From: Nitrospira sp. MA-1
GTDB taxonomy: Bacteria > Nitrospirota > Nitrospiria > Nitrospirales > UBA8639
Length of the DNA stretch: 64,000 nucleotides
Assembly (NCBI GenBank): GCA_032139905.1
Contig: JAQJDB010000006.1
Span: 372,001-436,000, forward strand
Direction of reading: 5' to 3'
The translations under genes and the position numbers were made by a program. Below, piece after piece: positions 8,661 to 53,347 of the stretch. The notes beneath the pieces are model-generated. The model saw only the letters and a list, made by a program, of their open reading frames with translations, ran no database searches and was not told the DNA's origin. The number at the start of each line of letters is the position of its first letter. The first letter of the stretch is position 1.

Positions 8661-8951
8661 TGGGTAAGGGAAGGGGGTTCGGTTGAATGTGAATCAGGAT
8701 GGGCGGATAGGGGCATCTGGTTCGAACCATCAGGAATGCCAGGCTTGGTTCATGTCCAAGCGCAGCCATTTTGTTAGAAACAATAGGAATGAGGTGGGAG
8801 ACAAAATTGAAAGACGATAGATGACTCTCGGGTAATCCCCGACTGGGCCAGACTGCATGATGATAATCGAAAAATACTAGCATGTTCGCCCGGCAATGGA
8901 AACCTGGGTTCCTGTTGTCTTGTTGTGCGGAAAGGCCTTCTTTATAATGAC

Positions 8952-10343
8952 ATGCCTATGAATTCTGAGGATTTCCAACAACCCCAACCACGGGTGACGT
9001 TCTATACGTTAGGGTGTCGACTCAATCAGGCTGAAACGGCTGTCCTTAAGGACGGGTTTCAGCAAAGCGGGTTTCTCCCGGTTGAATTTGGTCAGGAAAC
9101 GGATGTTTTTGTGATCAATACCTGCACTGTCACGGAAGGGGCCGAGGTCGATTGCCGACGAATCGTTCGCCAGGTCCTCCGTCATTCGCCCCACGCCTTT
9201 GTGGCGGTCACCGGGTGTTATGCTCAGACCGGACTTGAAGTGCTCCGCCGCATGGCCGATATTGACCTCATTGTCGGCAATCAATTCAAAATGCAGCTGC
9301 CTGAGATCATTCCACCATTTTCTCAGCTTAAAAAACAGCCTGTGCCACTGGTGCATCATGGGCGGATTGATCCTGAGAATTTTTTGATAGAAGGCGTAGG
9401 AGCCTATACCACGACTCGCGCAAATGTGAAAATTCAGGACGGGTGTCAATTTATGTGTTCGTTTTGCCTGATTCCCTTTGCCAGAGGCCGGGAGCGGAGT
9501 CGGTTTCTGGAGGATGCGGTTCGTGAGGCCGAGGAATTGGTGGAAAGAGGGCATCGTGAGTTAGTGCTGACGGGAGTGAACATCGGACAATATCGGGATG
9601 GAGCTGCCGACCTCTTGGTGCTCCTTCATCGATTTGAGGCCATTAAAGGCCTGGAGCGGATCCGTATTTCCTCAATTGAACCCACGACAGTTCCTGAGAG
9701 TCTTCTGGACTATATGAGCAGTTCCACCAAGCTGTGCCGGTATTTGCATGTGCCCTTACAGAGCGGAGATGATCGTATACTGGAGGCCATGAATCGGCGA
9801 TATTCGGTGCGAGAGTATTCGGAAGCAATGGAATCTGCTCTGAAGCGGATTCCAGATCTGTGCTTTGGAACGGATGTGCTGGTGGGGTTTCCTGGGGAGG
9901 GCTCACGAGAATTTTCGAATACGGAAGCGGTGATCCGGGATCTTCCTTTTGCGTATTTGCATGTGTTTAGCTACTCGCCCAGGCCAGGGACCGCCTCGAC
10001 CAAGTTGCCACATGCCGTGTCTCCAATAACGACAAAAGAGCGGAGTCGGAGATTGCGGGAATTATCCGATCACAAGCGAATGGCTTTCCAACAGCGGTTT
10101 ATAGGGCGACGAGTCTCGGTGTTATTTGAAGCAGCCGAAGCCGAGGGCTATTGGCCGGGGCTGACGGATAATTATATTCGAGTGGCCGTTCGTTCTCCAC
10201 ATCCGCTACGTAATACCATTCAACCGGTTGTCGTAACCGGCATCATGTCGGGTACGACGTTGGGATTGCTGGAGCCATCCTCTGAGTTCTCTCCCACGGC
10301 AAAGGATCTGTATTCTGTTTCTTCACTCGTGAGCGTTTCATAG
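8952..10343 (+). CDS. mtaB: tRNA threonylcarbamoyladenosine (t6A37) methylthiotransferase MtaB
   Basis: A radical-SAM methylthiotransferase of about 463 residues. It adds a methylthio group to t6A at position 37 of ANN-decoding tRNAs. The N-terminal UPF0004 domain has FYTLGCRLNQAE, INTCTVTE and VTGCYAQ, whose three cysteines bind the auxiliary cluster. The radical-SAM motif is CQFMCSFC within IQDGCQFMCSFCLIPFARG, and a TRAM-like segment ends the protein. TLGCRLNQ rather than TFGCQMN distinguishes MtaB from MiaB. The frame is open back to a GTG at 8925. ATG 8952 (or 8958) was chosen because a GGAAAGG lies upstream and conserved sequence starts soon after. It is followed 13 bases later by miaB. 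Confidence 0.92.
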   Translation: MPMNSEDFQQPQPRVTFYTLGCRLNQAETAVLKDGFQQSGFLPVEFGQETDVFVINTCTVTEGAEVDCRRIVRQVLRHSPHAFVAVTGCYAQTGLEVLRRMADIDLIVGNQFKMQLPEIIPPFSQLKKQPVPLVHHGRIDPENFLIEGVGAYTTTRANVKIQDGCQFMCSFCLIPFARGRERSRFLEDAVREAEELVERGHRELVLTGVNIGQYRDGAADLLVLLHRFEAIKGLERIRISSIEPTTVPESLLDYMSSSTKLCRYLHVPLQSGDDRILEAMNRRYSVREYSEAMESALKRIPDLCFGTDVLVGFPGEGSREFSNTEAVIRDLPFAYLHVFSYSPRPGTASTKLPHAVSPITTKERSRRLRELSDHKRMAFQQRFIGRRVSVLFEAAEAEGYWPGLTDNYIRVAVRSPHPLRNTIQPVVVTGIMSGTTLGLLEPSSEFSPTAKDLYSVSSLVSVS

Positions 10344-48356: not shown

Positions 48357-48677
48357 TTAGGATGAAGGGAGTGACGCTTTGAGTGCTTCGAGGTTTTTAA
48401 TGACGAGGAGATCGCCATTCTTGGTTGCCACGGTGATGCCTTCGGTGCATATGGTCTGGCACTTCTCAAATTCGCGTGTCTGGTGAAGTGATTGAGCCAG
48501 CGCAAAATAGGCAGCTGAATACCCGGGTTTCACCAGGATACATTGCTCCAGGGCGGGAATGGCCTCTTTCCAATTTTCGTCGCTCATGTAGGCTTTCCCC
48601 AGGCCGAACCACATGGTTTCGTCCTTTGGGTCCATTTGGAGTACTTTCTTAAATTGTTCGATCTTAGGATTGGCCAT
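48357..48677 (-). CDS. Small TPR-repeat protein
   Basis: A 106-residue protein with about two and a half tetratricopeptide units: DPKDETMWFGLGKAYMSDENWKEA, KPGYSAAYFALAQSLHQTREF and a final helix. It is likely a cytoplasmic scaffold for protein contacts. It converges with the preceding hypothetical gene and is divergent from the deacetylase-like gene. A partner is not evident. Confidence 0.8.
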   Translation of the reverse strand: MANPKIEQFKKVLQMDPKDETMWFGLGKAYMSDENWKEAIPALEQCILVKPGYSAAYFALAQSLHQTREFEKCQTICTEGITVATKNGDLLVIKNLEALKASLPSS

Positions 48678-48891: not shown

Positions 48892-49836
48892 ATGGGACGT
48901 GTTGGATACGTTTCTCATCCGGCCTATGAGCTCCATGAGATGGGCAGAAGCCATCCGGAGTCCCCTGAGCGGCTTCGTGCGATACGCGCGCAATTAGAGC
49001 ATTCGGGAACGTGGTCCCGGCTGCATCAGGTCGCACCACGACAGGCGGAGCGGAAATGGATTGAACTCGTCCATGATTCGTCCTATGTGGAGAGTCTTGA
49101 ACGACGTTCTCCCTCAGATGGCTATGCCTCCCTGGATCCTGATACGTCGATGTGTCCGGGTACGATGGAGGCTGCCTATCTGGCAGTTGGCGCGGGGTTG
49201 GCGGCGGTGGATGCGATTATGAATGACGACATTGACCAGGCGTTTTGCGCCGTGCGGCCTCCCGGGCATCATGCCGAGGCGGATCGAGCGATGGGGTTTT
49301 GTTTCCTGAATACCATCGCGATTACCGCCCGTTATCTTCAGCAACAGTATGGCCTACAGAAGATCATGGTTGTGGATTGGGATGTGCATCATGGCAACGG
49401 CACCCAACAGGCCTTCTATGATGATCCTACCGTCCTGTTTTTTAGTACGCACCAGTCCCCGTTTTATCCCGGAACGGGTCAGGCGACGGAAACGGGAGAA
49501 GGTCAAGGAAAAGGTCTGACCATCAATGTTCCCCTCTCAGGAGGCCAGGGAGATGAGGAGTATCGGGAAATATTCCAGGAAATCCTGATTCCAGCCGCTG
49601 ACCACTTTCAACCTGAATGCATTCTGATTTCTGCGGGGTTTGACGCTCATCGTGATGATCCGTTGGCGAGTATGAGCGTAACGGAGCAAGGCTATGCCGA
49701 CATGACCACGATTGTCTCGAAGATTGCTAGGAAATTTGCCGGTGGACGAATCGTGGCATGTTTAGAGGGCGGTTATCAGCTCAAGGCATTGGCGCAATCG
49801 GTAGACCGCCATCTTCAATCTCTGTTGGATAATTAA
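48892..49836 (+). CDS. Histone-deacetylase-superfamily amidohydrolase
   Basis: A 314-residue zinc hydrolase of the arginase/deacetylase fold. RPPGHHAEADRAMGFCFLN contains the catalytic His pair, and DWDVHHGNGTQQAFYDD and GFDAHRDDPLAS supply the Asp and His zinc ligands. The catalytic Tyr position lies in LEGGYQL. Bacterial members remove acyl groups from polyamines, acetoin-linked or protein lysines, and the substrate here is not defined. GGGAG precedes the ATG. The cytochrome gene starts one base after its stop. Confidence 0.93.
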   Translation: MGRVGYVSHPAYELHEMGRSHPESPERLRAIRAQLEHSGTWSRLHQVAPRQAERKWIELVHDSSYVESLERRSPSDGYASLDPDTSMCPGTMEAAYLAVGAGLAAVDAIMNDDIDQAFCAVRPPGHHAEADRAMGFCFLNTIAITARYLQQQYGLQKIMVVDWDVHHGNGTQQAFYDDPTVLFFSTHQSPFYPGTGQATETGEGQGKGLTINVPLSGGQGDEEYREIFQEILIPAADHFQPECILISAGFDAHRDDPLASMSVTEQGYADMTTIVSKIARKFAGGRIVACLEGGYQLKALAQSVDRHLQSLLDN

Positions 49837-49837
49837 C

Positions 49838-51163
49838 GTGTTGAAATCAAAACGATCATGGAAAGCAAAAGCCTGGCTGTTGCTCCTGTTGGTGCTGGGG
49901 GCAGGGATCTATATCTTTTATACGGAAATTCGTCCCGTCGTTATTTTCGGATTACGGGAGGATTACGCGAAACCCATTCCCTATCAGCAGATTCCAGTGG
50001 GATTGCAGAGCTTAAAGGCGGAGGAATGTGGAAGTTGTCATGTCGAAATCTACGAAGAGTGGAAATCCAGTATTCATGCCCAAGCCTTTCATGATCCGTT
50101 TTTTCAAGCCTATTGGAAAAAAGATGACAATGTTTGGGTCTGTTTGAATTGCCATACGCCATTGGAGAATCAGCAACCGACTCTTATTCAAGACCTGCCC
50201 CGTGAACGAGTCGAAAAAGCCGTGCAAATTCCGAATTACCGGTACGATGCGGAATATCAACAAGAAGGTGTGACGTGCGCGGCCTGCCATGTTCGAGATG
50301 GGATGATTCTCGGGCCGTATGACGATTCGGCGGCGCCTCATCCCACAAAATTTGATCCATCCTTCAGAACGACCCAAGTCTGCTATCGCTGCCATAATGT
50401 CGTTTCGGGTCCCATGCAATTCTACAATGCGGGGCCTTGTGGCACCTATCCCGAGTATGAAGGCAAGTTTTTTATGAAGGAAAAGGGACTGATTTGTCAG
50501 AGTTGTCATATGCCTGAAGTCGAGCGGCCGGTTGCCAAGGATAGCCCTATTCGTTTCGGTCGCCGGCATCTCTGGCGGGGAGGCCATGATCCGGACATGG
50601 TCAAGCGAGCGGTCGCTGTCCAAGTTCAGGCAGAACCTCCCACCCCCCGACCTGGTGACGATGTCAAATTGACGCTGACGCTCATTAATGCAGGAGCTGG
50701 ACACAAAATCCCGACCGGGGACCCTGATCGGTTCTTTACTGTTGAATTTACCGTGCGTGATCCGAACGGCACGGTGGTGCATGAGCAATCTGATACCATG
50801 GGCCGTTGGATCCTCTGGCAGCCGGTGATTGTGGAAGTCTTAGATAACCGACTATTACCGCTGGCCAGCCGGGATTATTCCTTTGAATATGAAATCCCGG
50901 AAAATGAAAAAGGGTGGATGGTTCAGGCGCGGATTCGGTATCATATTCAGACCGATAGTCAGAATCAGATGTTGAGAAATAAATATGGGCTGACGGGTGA
51001 AGATCCATATGTTTTTACGATCTATGAACGGGAGTTCCCATTGGATGCGACCCTGTCTGCGGCTTTACAGGATCAAGAACCCGATCCTCAGGTAGGGTGC
51101 ATGGCACCATCCGATAGCCTTGTTCCTCATCATCCGGCAAATACCTCTTCACTTCATTCATAA
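49838..51163 (+). CDS. Pentaheme c-type cytochrome (cytochrome c554-like)
   Basis: A 441-residue protein with an N-terminal membrane anchor (about 12-28) and five CxxCH heme sites at residues 64, 102, 147, 182 and 220. The first has the c554 pattern CGSCHVEIYEEWKSSIHAQA. From about 240 the protein is a heme-free beta-sandwich (LTLTLINAGAGHKIPTGDPDRFFTVEF). It would sit on the periplasmic face and carry electrons. GTG start, practically abutting the deacetylase gene. A nitrogen-cycle role fits the family but is not shown here. Confidence 0.88.
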   Translation: MLKSKRSWKAKAWLLLLLVLGAGIYIFYTEIRPVVIFGLREDYAKPIPYQQIPVGLQSLKAEECGSCHVEIYEEWKSSIHAQAFHDPFFQAYWKKDDNVWVCLNCHTPLENQQPTLIQDLPRERVEKAVQIPNYRYDAEYQQEGVTCAACHVRDGMILGPYDDSAAPHPTKFDPSFRTTQVCYRCHNVVSGPMQFYNAGPCGTYPEYEGKFFMKEKGLICQSCHMPEVERPVAKDSPIRFGRRHLWRGGHDPDMVKRAVAVQVQAEPPTPRPGDDVKLTLTLINAGAGHKIPTGDPDRFFTVEFTVRDPNGTVVHEQSDTMGRWILWQPVIVEVLDNRLLPLASRDYSFEYEIPENEKGWMVQARIRYHIQTDSQNQMLRNKYGLTGEDPYVFTIYEREFPLDATLSAALQDQEPDPQVGCMAPSDSLVPHHPANTSSLHS

Positions 51164-51175
51164 AGGGAAAGCACT

Positions 51176-52045
51176 GTGGCTGAAAATTTTTTCATTGATA
51201 CCGAATCATTAGCACAAAACCTGGGACGTGAAGGCTTAGTCATTATTGATGTGCGTGGACGCGGAGCGTATACCTCTCATATCCCCGGTGCGGTTCATAG
51301 CACCTGGCATGAGTACAGCGATCCATCGGCCGTGGCAAAGGGAGTCTTAGATCCTGACCTAGGAAGAATTGAACAGCGTCTTCGATCGCTGGGTATCAAC
51401 CAGTCCAGTGACGTGGTCATTTATTGTAACCCTTTTGATAATTGGGGTGATGAGGGGCGCATGTTTTGGATGTTGACCTATTTGGGACATTCCAGCGTTC
51501 GAATTCTGGACGGTGGGTGGGTCAAGTGGACGGCAGAGCAGCGTCCCATTGACCATGAAGCGGTTCGACCAACGCTTGGTGATTTTACTGTCACGGCCAA
51601 TCCGGAACTCATTGTGAATAAAGATGGGTTAAAAAAACTGCTCAAAACACCTCACCCGGATACCATAATTCTTGATGCCAGAAGCGTCGAGGAATATGCG
51701 GGGAAGGAGATCGATGGGTTGCCTCGGGCCGGTCATATTCCTTCTGCCATCAATATCCCGTGGAATCGGTTTTTACAACCGGATGCCACGGTGAAACCTC
51801 CCGAGCAGGTCAGGGAAATATTTGAAGATCACGGGCTACGGGACAATCAGGAAATCATGACGTATTGCCTGGGTGGCGTTCGGGCGGCTTGGGTGTTTTG
51901 TTTGCTTCGATACGTCGGGTTTCCACGGGTGAAAGTCTATCCAGGATCGTGGTGGGAATGGTCCCGGGATTTCGCGGCACCGGCGGAAAAAGACGTGAAG
52001 TTATTATTTCGGGTCACCAATCAGGATCAAATGAAATCATCTTGA
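51176..52045 (+). CDS. Double-rhodanese sulfurtransferase
   Basis: A 289-residue cytoplasmic protein with two rhodanese domains. The N-terminal copy (about 8-130) lacks an active cysteine in loop position (YCNPFDNWGDEG is its counterpart). The C-terminal copy has the loop YCLGGVRAA with the catalytic Cys near residue 228, typical of thiosulfate or 3-mercaptopyruvate sulfurtransferases. GTG start after AAAGGGAAAG, 12 bases downstream of the cytochrome gene, so likely one message with it and the amidohydrolase. Confidence 0.88.
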   Translation: MAENFFIDTESLAQNLGREGLVIIDVRGRGAYTSHIPGAVHSTWHEYSDPSAVAKGVLDPDLGRIEQRLRSLGINQSSDVVIYCNPFDNWGDEGRMFWMLTYLGHSSVRILDGGWVKWTAEQRPIDHEAVRPTLGDFTVTANPELIVNKDGLKKLLKTPHPDTIILDARSVEEYAGKEIDGLPRAGHIPSAINIPWNRFLQPDATVKPPEQVREIFEDHGLRDNQEIMTYCLGGVRAAWVFCLLRYVGFPRVKVYPGSWWEWSRDFAAPAEKDVKLLFRVTNQDQMKSS

Positions 52046-52120
52046 TCTTGTGTATGAGGAATGAGAGGATAACTTAATCTCTCAGTTCAATTTCTATTTA
52101 CTTTTTCAAGGAGGTCAGGG

Positions 52121-52477
52121 ATGAGAAAGCAAGTGGTTAAGAAGGCAATTGGCATCATCGCCATACTCGGGATTCTGGTTGCAGGGGCGTGGGGGTCTGT
52201 CGCGCTTGCAGGAGCCAACCCACATGTAGCTGAAGCGATTGCTCATGCCGAGGGTGCCGTGAAACATGGCGAGCAGGGACATGCTGATGCGTTGGTTGAG
52301 CATGCTCAAGAAGCTTTGACCCACGCCCAGGGTGCTCAAAAAGACGTGAAGAATCCTCATTTAGATGAAGGTGTTCACGAACTCATGGAAGCGGTGGAGC
52401 ATGGCAAAGCTGGACATGCCGATGTCGGGACCAAGCATGCGAAAAGTGCAGTGATGCATTTGAAAGAGGTTAAGTAA
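52121..52477 (+). CDS. SmbP-like small periplasmic metal-binding protein
   Basis: A 118-residue protein. A signal peptide (basic RKQVVKK, hydrophobic core, cleavage likely after ALA near 30) leads to about 88 mature residues with 12 histidines. The mature part is an internal duplication: NPH, then AVKHGEQGHAD, and again NPH, then AVEHGKAGHAD. This helical His-rich repeat is the feature of SmbP from Nitrosomonas europaea, which binds copper and other metals. AGGAGG precedes the ATG and a strong terminator follows. Confidence 0.85.
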   Translation: MRKQVVKKAIGIIAILGILVAGAWGSVALAGANPHVAEAIAHAEGAVKHGEQGHADALVEHAQEALTHAQGAQKDVKNPHLDEGVHELMEAVEHGKAGHADVGTKHAKSAVMHLKEVK

Positions 52478-52503
52478 TCATAAAGGCTTAATCTGATAAA
52501 AAA

Positions 52504-52535
52504 GCGGGTAGAGTCCACCTCTGCCCGCTTTTTTT
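52504..52535 (+). terminator. Rho-independent terminator after the SmbP-like gene
   Basis: 10-bp stem GCGGGTAGAG/CTCTGCCCGC with one G-T pair and loop TCCAC, followed by seven T. It ends only 12 bases before the next start codon. Confidence 0.92.
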
Positions 52536-52546
52536 GTGGGGTGGTG

Positions 52547-53347
52547 ATGTCAACGATCAGTGGAGGGTTTTTCCAATTTTCTCCTGTGTTTGCAGAAGTG
52601 CAACGCAATTTGGAGACAATCCTGAATGCCATCCATACCTTTGAGGGACAGCTTCTTGTGTTTCCCGAACTTGCCCTCTCGGGATATCAATTCATTTCCA
52701 AGGACGAAGTCCGGGAGCTGTCAGAAGATATTCCTTCTGGTCCCTCCATCAAAGCCTTGGAAGAGGCCATTCGAGGACGAGATCTGCATGTGGTGGTCGG
52801 GTTGGCTGAACGAGACCATGACCGGTTATTTAATTCGGCAGTACTGATTGGGCCCAAGGGGTATATCGGGACCTATCGGAAAACCCATTTGTTTTTTGAG
52901 GAAACTCTCTGGTTTGCTCCTGGAGATACGGGATTTCTTGTCTGGGATATTGGAAGGGCCAAGGTTGGTCTTCTAGTCTGTTTTGATTGGTTTTTTCCAG
53001 AAGCCGCAAGAAGTCTGGCCATCAAGGGCGCCGATATTCTTTGCCACCCCAGCAATTTGGTGTTGCCCTATTGCCCGGATGCCATGGTGACAAGATGTTT
53101 AGAAAACAGGGTGTTTGCCATAACAGCCAATCGAGTCGGCAGGGAACAGCGTGGGGAAAAACCGGCATTGCCATTTATTGGCATGAGTGAGATTGTGGCC
53201 CCCAATGGAAGAATTTTATGTCGATCTTCCCAAAAGAACGAGGAGCTTGGTCTGTATGAGATGGATGTGGCGGAAGCTCGGGACAAACGAATCAATCCCT
53301 ATAATGATTTGCTCAAAGACCGACGTCCTGAATGGTATGTCTTATAA
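52547..53347 (+). CDS. Carbon-nitrogen hydrolase (nitrilase superfamily amidase)
   Basis: A 266-residue cytoplasmic enzyme with the Glu-Lys-Cys triad: FPELALSGY (Glu near 40), YRKTHL (Lys near 110) and LLVCFDWFFPEA (Cys near 145). It is of the nitrilase-family amidase type (omega-amidase, N-carbamoyl-putrescine amidase and relatives). The exact substrate is not deducible. ATG 52547 directly follows the terminator of the SmbP-like gene. GTG codons at 52541 and 52544 are alternatives. No promoter fits between, so it must be served by readthrough or a promoter inside the preceding gene. Confidence 0.9.
   Translation: MSTISGGFFQFSPVFAEVQRNLETILNAIHTFEGQLLVFPELALSGYQFISKDEVRELSEDIPSGPSIKALEEAIRGRDLHVVVGLAERDHDRLFNSAVLIGPKGYIGTYRKTHLFFEETLWFAPGDTGFLVWDIGRAKVGLLVCFDWFFPEAARSLAIKGADILCHPSNLVLPYCPDAMVTRCLENRVFAITANRVGREQRGEKPALPFIGMSEIVAPNGRILCRSSQKNEELGLYEMDVAEARDKRINPYNDLLKDRRPEWYVL

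Follow-up and report, generated by a model that had tools for sequence, protein, structure and literature searches.

A five-gene cassette pairing a pentaheme cytochrome with a zinc deacylase and a rhodanese in the order Nitrospirales

Genes for an HDAC-like deacylase, a pentaheme cytochrome, a rhodanese, an SmbP-like protein and a nitrilase-superfamily hydrolase, in that order, make up an ancient cassette of the order Nitrospirales. We came upon it in a 64,000-nucleotide stretch of Nitrospira sp. MA-1 DNA (hereafter the window), taken from a genome of 4.76 Mb in 7 contigs. The preliminary description of this DNA had noted a tight unit of the first three genes; the finding is wider than that, being a five-gene and order-wide cassette. 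No published account of it was found in the article listings, abstracts and main-text passages searched, and within that literature the initial remark that the gene mix matches no known pathway stands. Among the Nitrospirales are widespread nitrite oxidisers as well as comammox bacteria, and an order-wide cassette, the trio of which also occurs in a further family (f4), provides a concrete handle on activities of these bacteria besides nitrite oxidation. Among the functional readings weighed below, we favour a role of the cytochrome in sulfane-sulfur redox over a grouping of genes by shared expression alone, followed by nitrile handling and then by nitrogen-oxide electron transfer.

The gene row and the conservation of its order

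The three plus-strand reading frames of the preliminary description, lying 1 and 12 bases apart, were borne out by their coordinates and Pfam matches (Table 1), and the spacing widens to 75 bases between rhodanese and SmbP and 63 between SmbP and the carbon-nitrogen hydrolase. Over 93 loci the deacylase-cytochrome gap has a median of -4, such that the stop codon of the first gene overlaps the start of the second, and this overlap is found in most loci. A single message for deacylase, cytochrome and rhodanese is plausible from this arrangement. The transcription unit probably extends into the SmbP-like and hydrolase genes as well, and the trio would then be the leading part of a set of five. 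A scan showed 0 terminator-like sites on the plus strand from 52045 to 52541, although this is a weak test (4 sites in the scan as a whole versus 4.4 expected from shuffles).

Table 1. Genes of the conserved row and its divergent neighbour in the window
Feature	Position	Strand	Basis and remarks
TPR protein	48357..48677	-	Pfam TPR; divergent, upstream of deacylase; not counted in transcript
HDAC-like zinc deacylase, predicted class II type	48892..49836	+	PF00850 Hist_deacetyl, 361.6 bits
Pentaheme cytochrome, c552/ExtKL kind, predicted membrane-anchored	49838..51163	+	Multiheme Pfam families; five CxxCH
Tandem rhodanese, probably cytosolic	51176..52045	+	PF00581 in two stretches
SmbP-like metal-binding protein	52121..52477	+	PF16785, 98.4 bits; hydrophobic N-terminus (probable export signal)
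Carbon-nitrogen hydrolase, nitrilase superfamily	52541..53347	+	PF00795, 144.6 bits

Gene neighbourhoods, the comparison of which had been set as a test beforehand, were compiled for the best 80 of 272 cytochrome relatives in public genomes, a choice that favours cassette-type cytochromes. Within these best 80 loci the contiguous deacylase-cytochrome-rhodanese trio was present in 72, the trio plus SmbP in 69, all five genes in a row in 67 and the divergent upstream TPR gene in 71. The order is therefore not unique to this genome, an outcome that the preliminary description had named as refuting; named relatives belong to the Nitrospirota and include the cultured Ca. Nitrospira defluvii and N. 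moscoviensis. The eight loci lacking the trio comprise three truncated by contig ends, four lone cytochromes and one (L072) in which approximately 1.2 kb separates the cytochrome from the rhodanese. In the window's own family a strong cytochrome match (best E < 1e-90) was recovered from 40 of 48 genomes, the other eight being 64-90% complete, and all 20 examined loci of this family, which partly come from the same genomes as the 80, hold the three genes in the same order.

To judge this order against background rearrangement, we turned to 36 loci of the sister family with room on both sides. There the TPR, deacylase and rhodanese genes were each present in 35 loci and the SmbP and nitrilase genes in 34, versus 0 of 36 for seven other, outer neighbours from the window. 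The cassette has therefore been held together, and preservation merely through slow rearrangement is rejected. The tight deacylase-cytochrome spacing combined with such far-reaching order is more than chance.

The pentaheme cytochrome and the proteins encoded beside it

All 55 aligned cytochrome rows, like the window's own protein, carry five CxxCH motifs. The preliminary description had called this protein c554-like, a label that did not hold up: cytochrome c554 contains four hemes, no match to the Pfam c554 family was obtained at E 0.001, and sequence and model instead place the window's protein with the pentaheme c552/ExtKL kind. Indeed, its predicted structure (a heme-free model with pLDDT 78.6) found the pentaheme c552 5ZE8 as best Foldseek match over its length (E 4e-14, TM 0.52/0.58), while the next matches covered beta-sandwich domains alone. 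A profile search also matched 5ZE8, and a PHROGs search gave no result. Model and fold search together thus return a c552 fold with a C-terminal Ig-like beta domain, preceded in the window's protein by one predicted N-terminal membrane helix.

Outside the heme motifs, histidines 80, 168, 244, 250 and 289 are invariant in 55 of 55 rows, and H369 is present in 54 of 55. With five extra invariant histidines all five hemes could be bis-His ligated, fitting an electron carrier. Alternatively, H289 may be part of a reaction site: Asp295, six residues further along, is the position aligned with the MccSep selenocysteine. Cysteine C201 (window 50438-50440), likewise outside the heme motifs, is invariant in 55 of 55 rows; it aligns with a cysteine of both c552 and MccSep, and may serve as a ligand or carry sulfur.

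The closest known systems each share only part of this picture. Thermochromatium tepidum c552 (PDB 5ZE8) likewise has five hemes, with the heme segments arranged in the same order and a beta domain at the C-terminus, but is 18% identical, and the window's protein differs in its predicted N-terminal membrane helix and probably in gene setting. PMC11976967 unites ExtKL and cable-bacteria proteins in a single pentaheme family that has an Ig-like domain and resembles c552, and these features of ExtKL and MccSep are shared by the window's cytochrome. However, the latter scores 65.4 against the cut-off of 250 for the ExtKL equivalog NF040886, and it has Asp295 at the selenocysteine (X) position of the MccSep motif GHxIPxG-x-P, where we took Sec or Cys to mark an ExtKL motif, Cys variants being counted by assumption. 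Similarly, the Geobacter ext cluster contains both the rhodanese-like extH and a pentaheme gene (PMC5877670); in contrast to that cluster, the window's row contains a deacylase, and a porin, 10-/12-heme cytochromes, cytochrome b and a Rieske protein are absent among the ten proteins around it.

For the deacylase, catalytic motifs are conserved in 107 rows, and its His-His, Asp-His-Asp and Tyr motifs, which we take to form the zinc site and catalytic tyrosine, align with those of HDAC6 and the class II HDAC-like bacterial deacylase 5ji5. The protein, with class II enzymes and 5ji5 as its nearest relatives, is thus predicted to be a class II-type zinc deacylase, differing from known members in that its gene adjoins that of a multiheme cytochrome. 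The rhodanese resembles tandem rhodaneses (PDB 1uar; SseA-type) in having two rhodanese domains with the catalytic cysteine in the second. It departs from the SseA type in its loop CxGGxR, which holds catalytic C231 in 39 of 39 rows, and in scoring 117.9 against the PRK11493 cut-off of 250, and therefore we do not call it a mercaptopyruvate enzyme. Its N-terminus has no hydrophobic segment and no export signal, and for lack of the former it is probably cytosolic.

Departure of the cytochrome and spread of the parts

In 74 genomes from three sister-family genera the cytochrome gene adjoins the deacylase gene in 39, lies elsewhere in 25 and is absent from nine, one genome being without a deacylase match; some of the genomes scored as apart (G116, G365) were assigned from fragments at contig edges. 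With 34 of these 74 genomes either lacking the cytochrome or carrying it at another site, an obligate three-part machine is rejected. At 12 examined loci the row reads deacylase-rhodanese-SmbP-nitrilase without the cytochrome, and the TPR gene diverges from it in 11, the contig of the other (L170) ending before the TPR position. That deacylase and rhodanese still lie side by side at these 12 loci speaks against one joint pathway. In a tree of 97 cytochromes, a selection of relatives from which the partial copies of G155 were left out, 26 lone copies form one clade inside the sister family (support 100/99), so a single exit from the cassette accounts for them. Genomes that are without the cytochrome alone are natural knock-outs, and the role of the cytochrome is therefore testable by comparison.

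These departures lend weight to the main rival reading, which we hold to be possible, if somewhat less probable than the one we favour: the genes would be expressed from a common promoter, perhaps under one condition such as envelope or metal stress, with no pathway in common, and the cytochrome would be a separable early joiner that some lineages have since lost or relocated. Its clean absence at 12 loci and the lone clade agree with this, as does the observation that in other Nitrospirota classes, where cytochrome relatives are 39-55% identical, most cytochrome loci have none of the remaining cassette genes nearby. However, such an operon of convenience would have to account for an order that persists across families from which the outer neighbours have vanished, for the stop/start overlap between deacylase and cytochrome genes at most loci, and for a cytochrome-rhodanese adjacency that recurs outside the order.

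Comammox metabolism as the cause of cytochrome loss is unsupported as a clean rule. In genus g11, ammonia monooxygenase (AMO) was present in 12 of 23 genomes with the cytochrome adjacent, 19 of 23 with it apart and four of seven with it absent, related genomes being counted separately.

Some lone-type cytochromes have recognisable surroundings. In 9 of 28 loci (L108, L173, L175, L180, L185, L191, L194, L200 and L201) the gene ahead of the cytochrome, on the same strand, encodes a membrane protein of 239-342 aa that looks TVP38-like by eye, and in L108 an ORF judged SQR-like by eye follows. One genome (L179/L180) has both an intact cassette copy and a second, split cytochrome copy (L180:7514-8766).

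Beyond the two families above, parts of the cassette occur in different combinations. All five genes in order were found in two genomes of family f3 (L159, L204), with a larger gap after the rhodanese, while a third (G383) gave weak cytochrome matches and no deacylase or rhodanese match. In family f4 the deacylase-cytochrome-rhodanese trio is present in 3/3 genomes (L160, L161, L205), and SmbP and nitrilase genes are not in the examined stretch, which for L205 is just 5.3 kb. A genome of another order (L147) carries the cytochrome-rhodanese pair; the deacylase search of that genome was negative, yet a 69-residue fragment at the L147 contig end scores as a deacylase. SmbP and nitrilase seem to have joined the cassette last, given the f4 trio without both and the cytochrome-rhodanese pair alone in L147.

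The nitrilase is also central to a second rival, in which deacylase and nitrilase would cleave small amides or nitriles for nitrogen scavenging or cyanide handling, the rhodanese would convert released cyanide to thiocyanate and the cytochrome would be incidental. Small amides may be substrates of class II-like bacterial deacylases (PMC11532494), the window's hydrolase is close to archaeal nitrilase structures, and the two C-N hydrolases and the sulfurtransferase stay together where the cytochrome is gone. We nevertheless consider this reading improbable, as the trio lacks a nearby nitrilase at 3/3 f4 loci, and nitrile hydratase, cyanase and thiocyanate genes were not seen in the row.

The window's genome also encodes tandem pentaheme cytochromes (L181:7417-8754 and 8805-10061, at G000:C6 ~672-675 kb), which are 23-27% identical to the window's. 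They probably correspond to the pentaheme pair of N. moscoviensis that PMC12342949 reports near NxrC and TorD in a nitrite-linked cluster. The tandem pair was present in the tested f1, f2 and f3 genomes (3/3 for f3) and in 0/3 f4 genomes. Judged by this proxy for NXR, the trio is not bound up with nitrite oxidation, since all three f4 genomes have it.

These distributions bear also on the rival we consider least likely, and very doubtful, namely a part for the cytochrome in nitrogen-oxide electron transfer within nitrification, either c554-like or as a relative of nitrite or hydroxylamine enzymes. Within the order the cytochrome is carried mostly by named nitrifiers, and hydroxylamine-linked multiheme proteins have a similar first heme segment. 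Against this are set the absence of a c554 family match, the relatives in other Nitrospirota classes, the f4 trio without the nitrite-linked pair, and, across three genera, an occurrence that does not cleanly follow that of ammonia monooxygenase.

Sulfur genes beside the cytochrome and its candidate role

Outside the order, deep Nitrospirota relatives of the cytochrome adjoin DsrE, DsrH, SQR-like oxidoreductase and TauE genes, and in L214 a secreted rhodanese starts approximately 2 bases after the cytochrome. Counting over 36 cytochrome places in 33 genomes outside the order, with neighbour rows compiled by eye, weaker extra cytochrome matches in the same genomes omitted and expected values taken from full counts, we found DsrE or rhodanese within 1 kb at at least 7 places, versus 0.50 expected (Poisson tail 1e-6), and within 5 kb at at least 8, versus 1.69 expected (4e-4). 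These tails ignore kinship and are guide values: the seven sulfur-linked places fall in five families, and G062/G095 and G068/G085, which share genera, were counted apart. The DsrE association was noticed before counting and is post hoc, while the rhodanese part follows from the window's own row. Among the matches listed, 29 of the 36 places have neither gene within 1 kb.

We favour, at a probability of roughly 0.4, a sulfane-sulfur redox role for the cytochrome in which the rhodanese is its partner. In this picture the cytochrome would be an electron-transfer protein, fixed to the periplasmic side of the inner membrane through its N-terminal helix, and would give electrons to, or take them from, a sulfur reaction in the periplasm that involves sulfide, sulfane sulfur or sulfite; the cytosolic tandem rhodanese would handle sulfane sulfur on the inner side. 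The cassette would then be an aid to sulfur redox or sulfur detoxification rather than a nitrogen pathway. Deacylase, SmbP and nitrilase would be accessories expressed together with it, and any regulatory action of the deacylase on acyl-lysine would be a guess.

Consistent with this reading are the retention of the trio (72 of the best 80 loci and every examined window-family locus), the fold and profile match to pentaheme c552, the invariant non-heme cysteine, the f4 trio without the nitrite-linked pair, the sulfur-related neighbours outside the order (including those in L214 and L147), and the Geobacter cluster that has both a rhodanese-like and a pentaheme gene. Several points weigh against it: most outside places have no DsrE or rhodanese close by among the matches listed, deacylase and rhodanese are retained in the 34 sister-family genomes where the cytochrome is absent or elsewhere, the membrane is predicted to separate the cytochrome from the rhodanese, and deacylase and nitrilase are left without explanation. 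Of the nitrogen or sulfur redox function suggested in the preliminary description, then, the sulfur half gains from the DsrE and rhodanese neighbours, and the nitrogen half, as nitrite oxidation, loses by the f4 trio.

The linkage of the cytochrome to rhodanese or DsrE genes also suggests what this fold, described chiefly from electroactive bacteria, may do. A bolder version, which we think rather unlikely, would make the cassette an ancestral Nitrospirales sulfur-redox set that predates nitrite oxidation, in which the cytochrome drains or feeds electrons, the rhodanese is dedicated to this purpose and the deacylase is a regulator. Were it true, a sulfur side-metabolism would lie hidden in nitrite oxidisers, and the pentaheme fold of the selenite-linked ExtKL would gain a sulfur-linked branch without selenocysteine.

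Two further settings of non-cassette cytochromes were observed. In the distant Nitrospirota genome of L214 (876-3262) a CxxCH protein with NPCAAK repeats, the pentaheme cytochrome and the secreted rhodanese form a row, and AmpG-like transporters, recognised by eye, lie a few kb from the cytochromes of L146, L148, L152 and L068.
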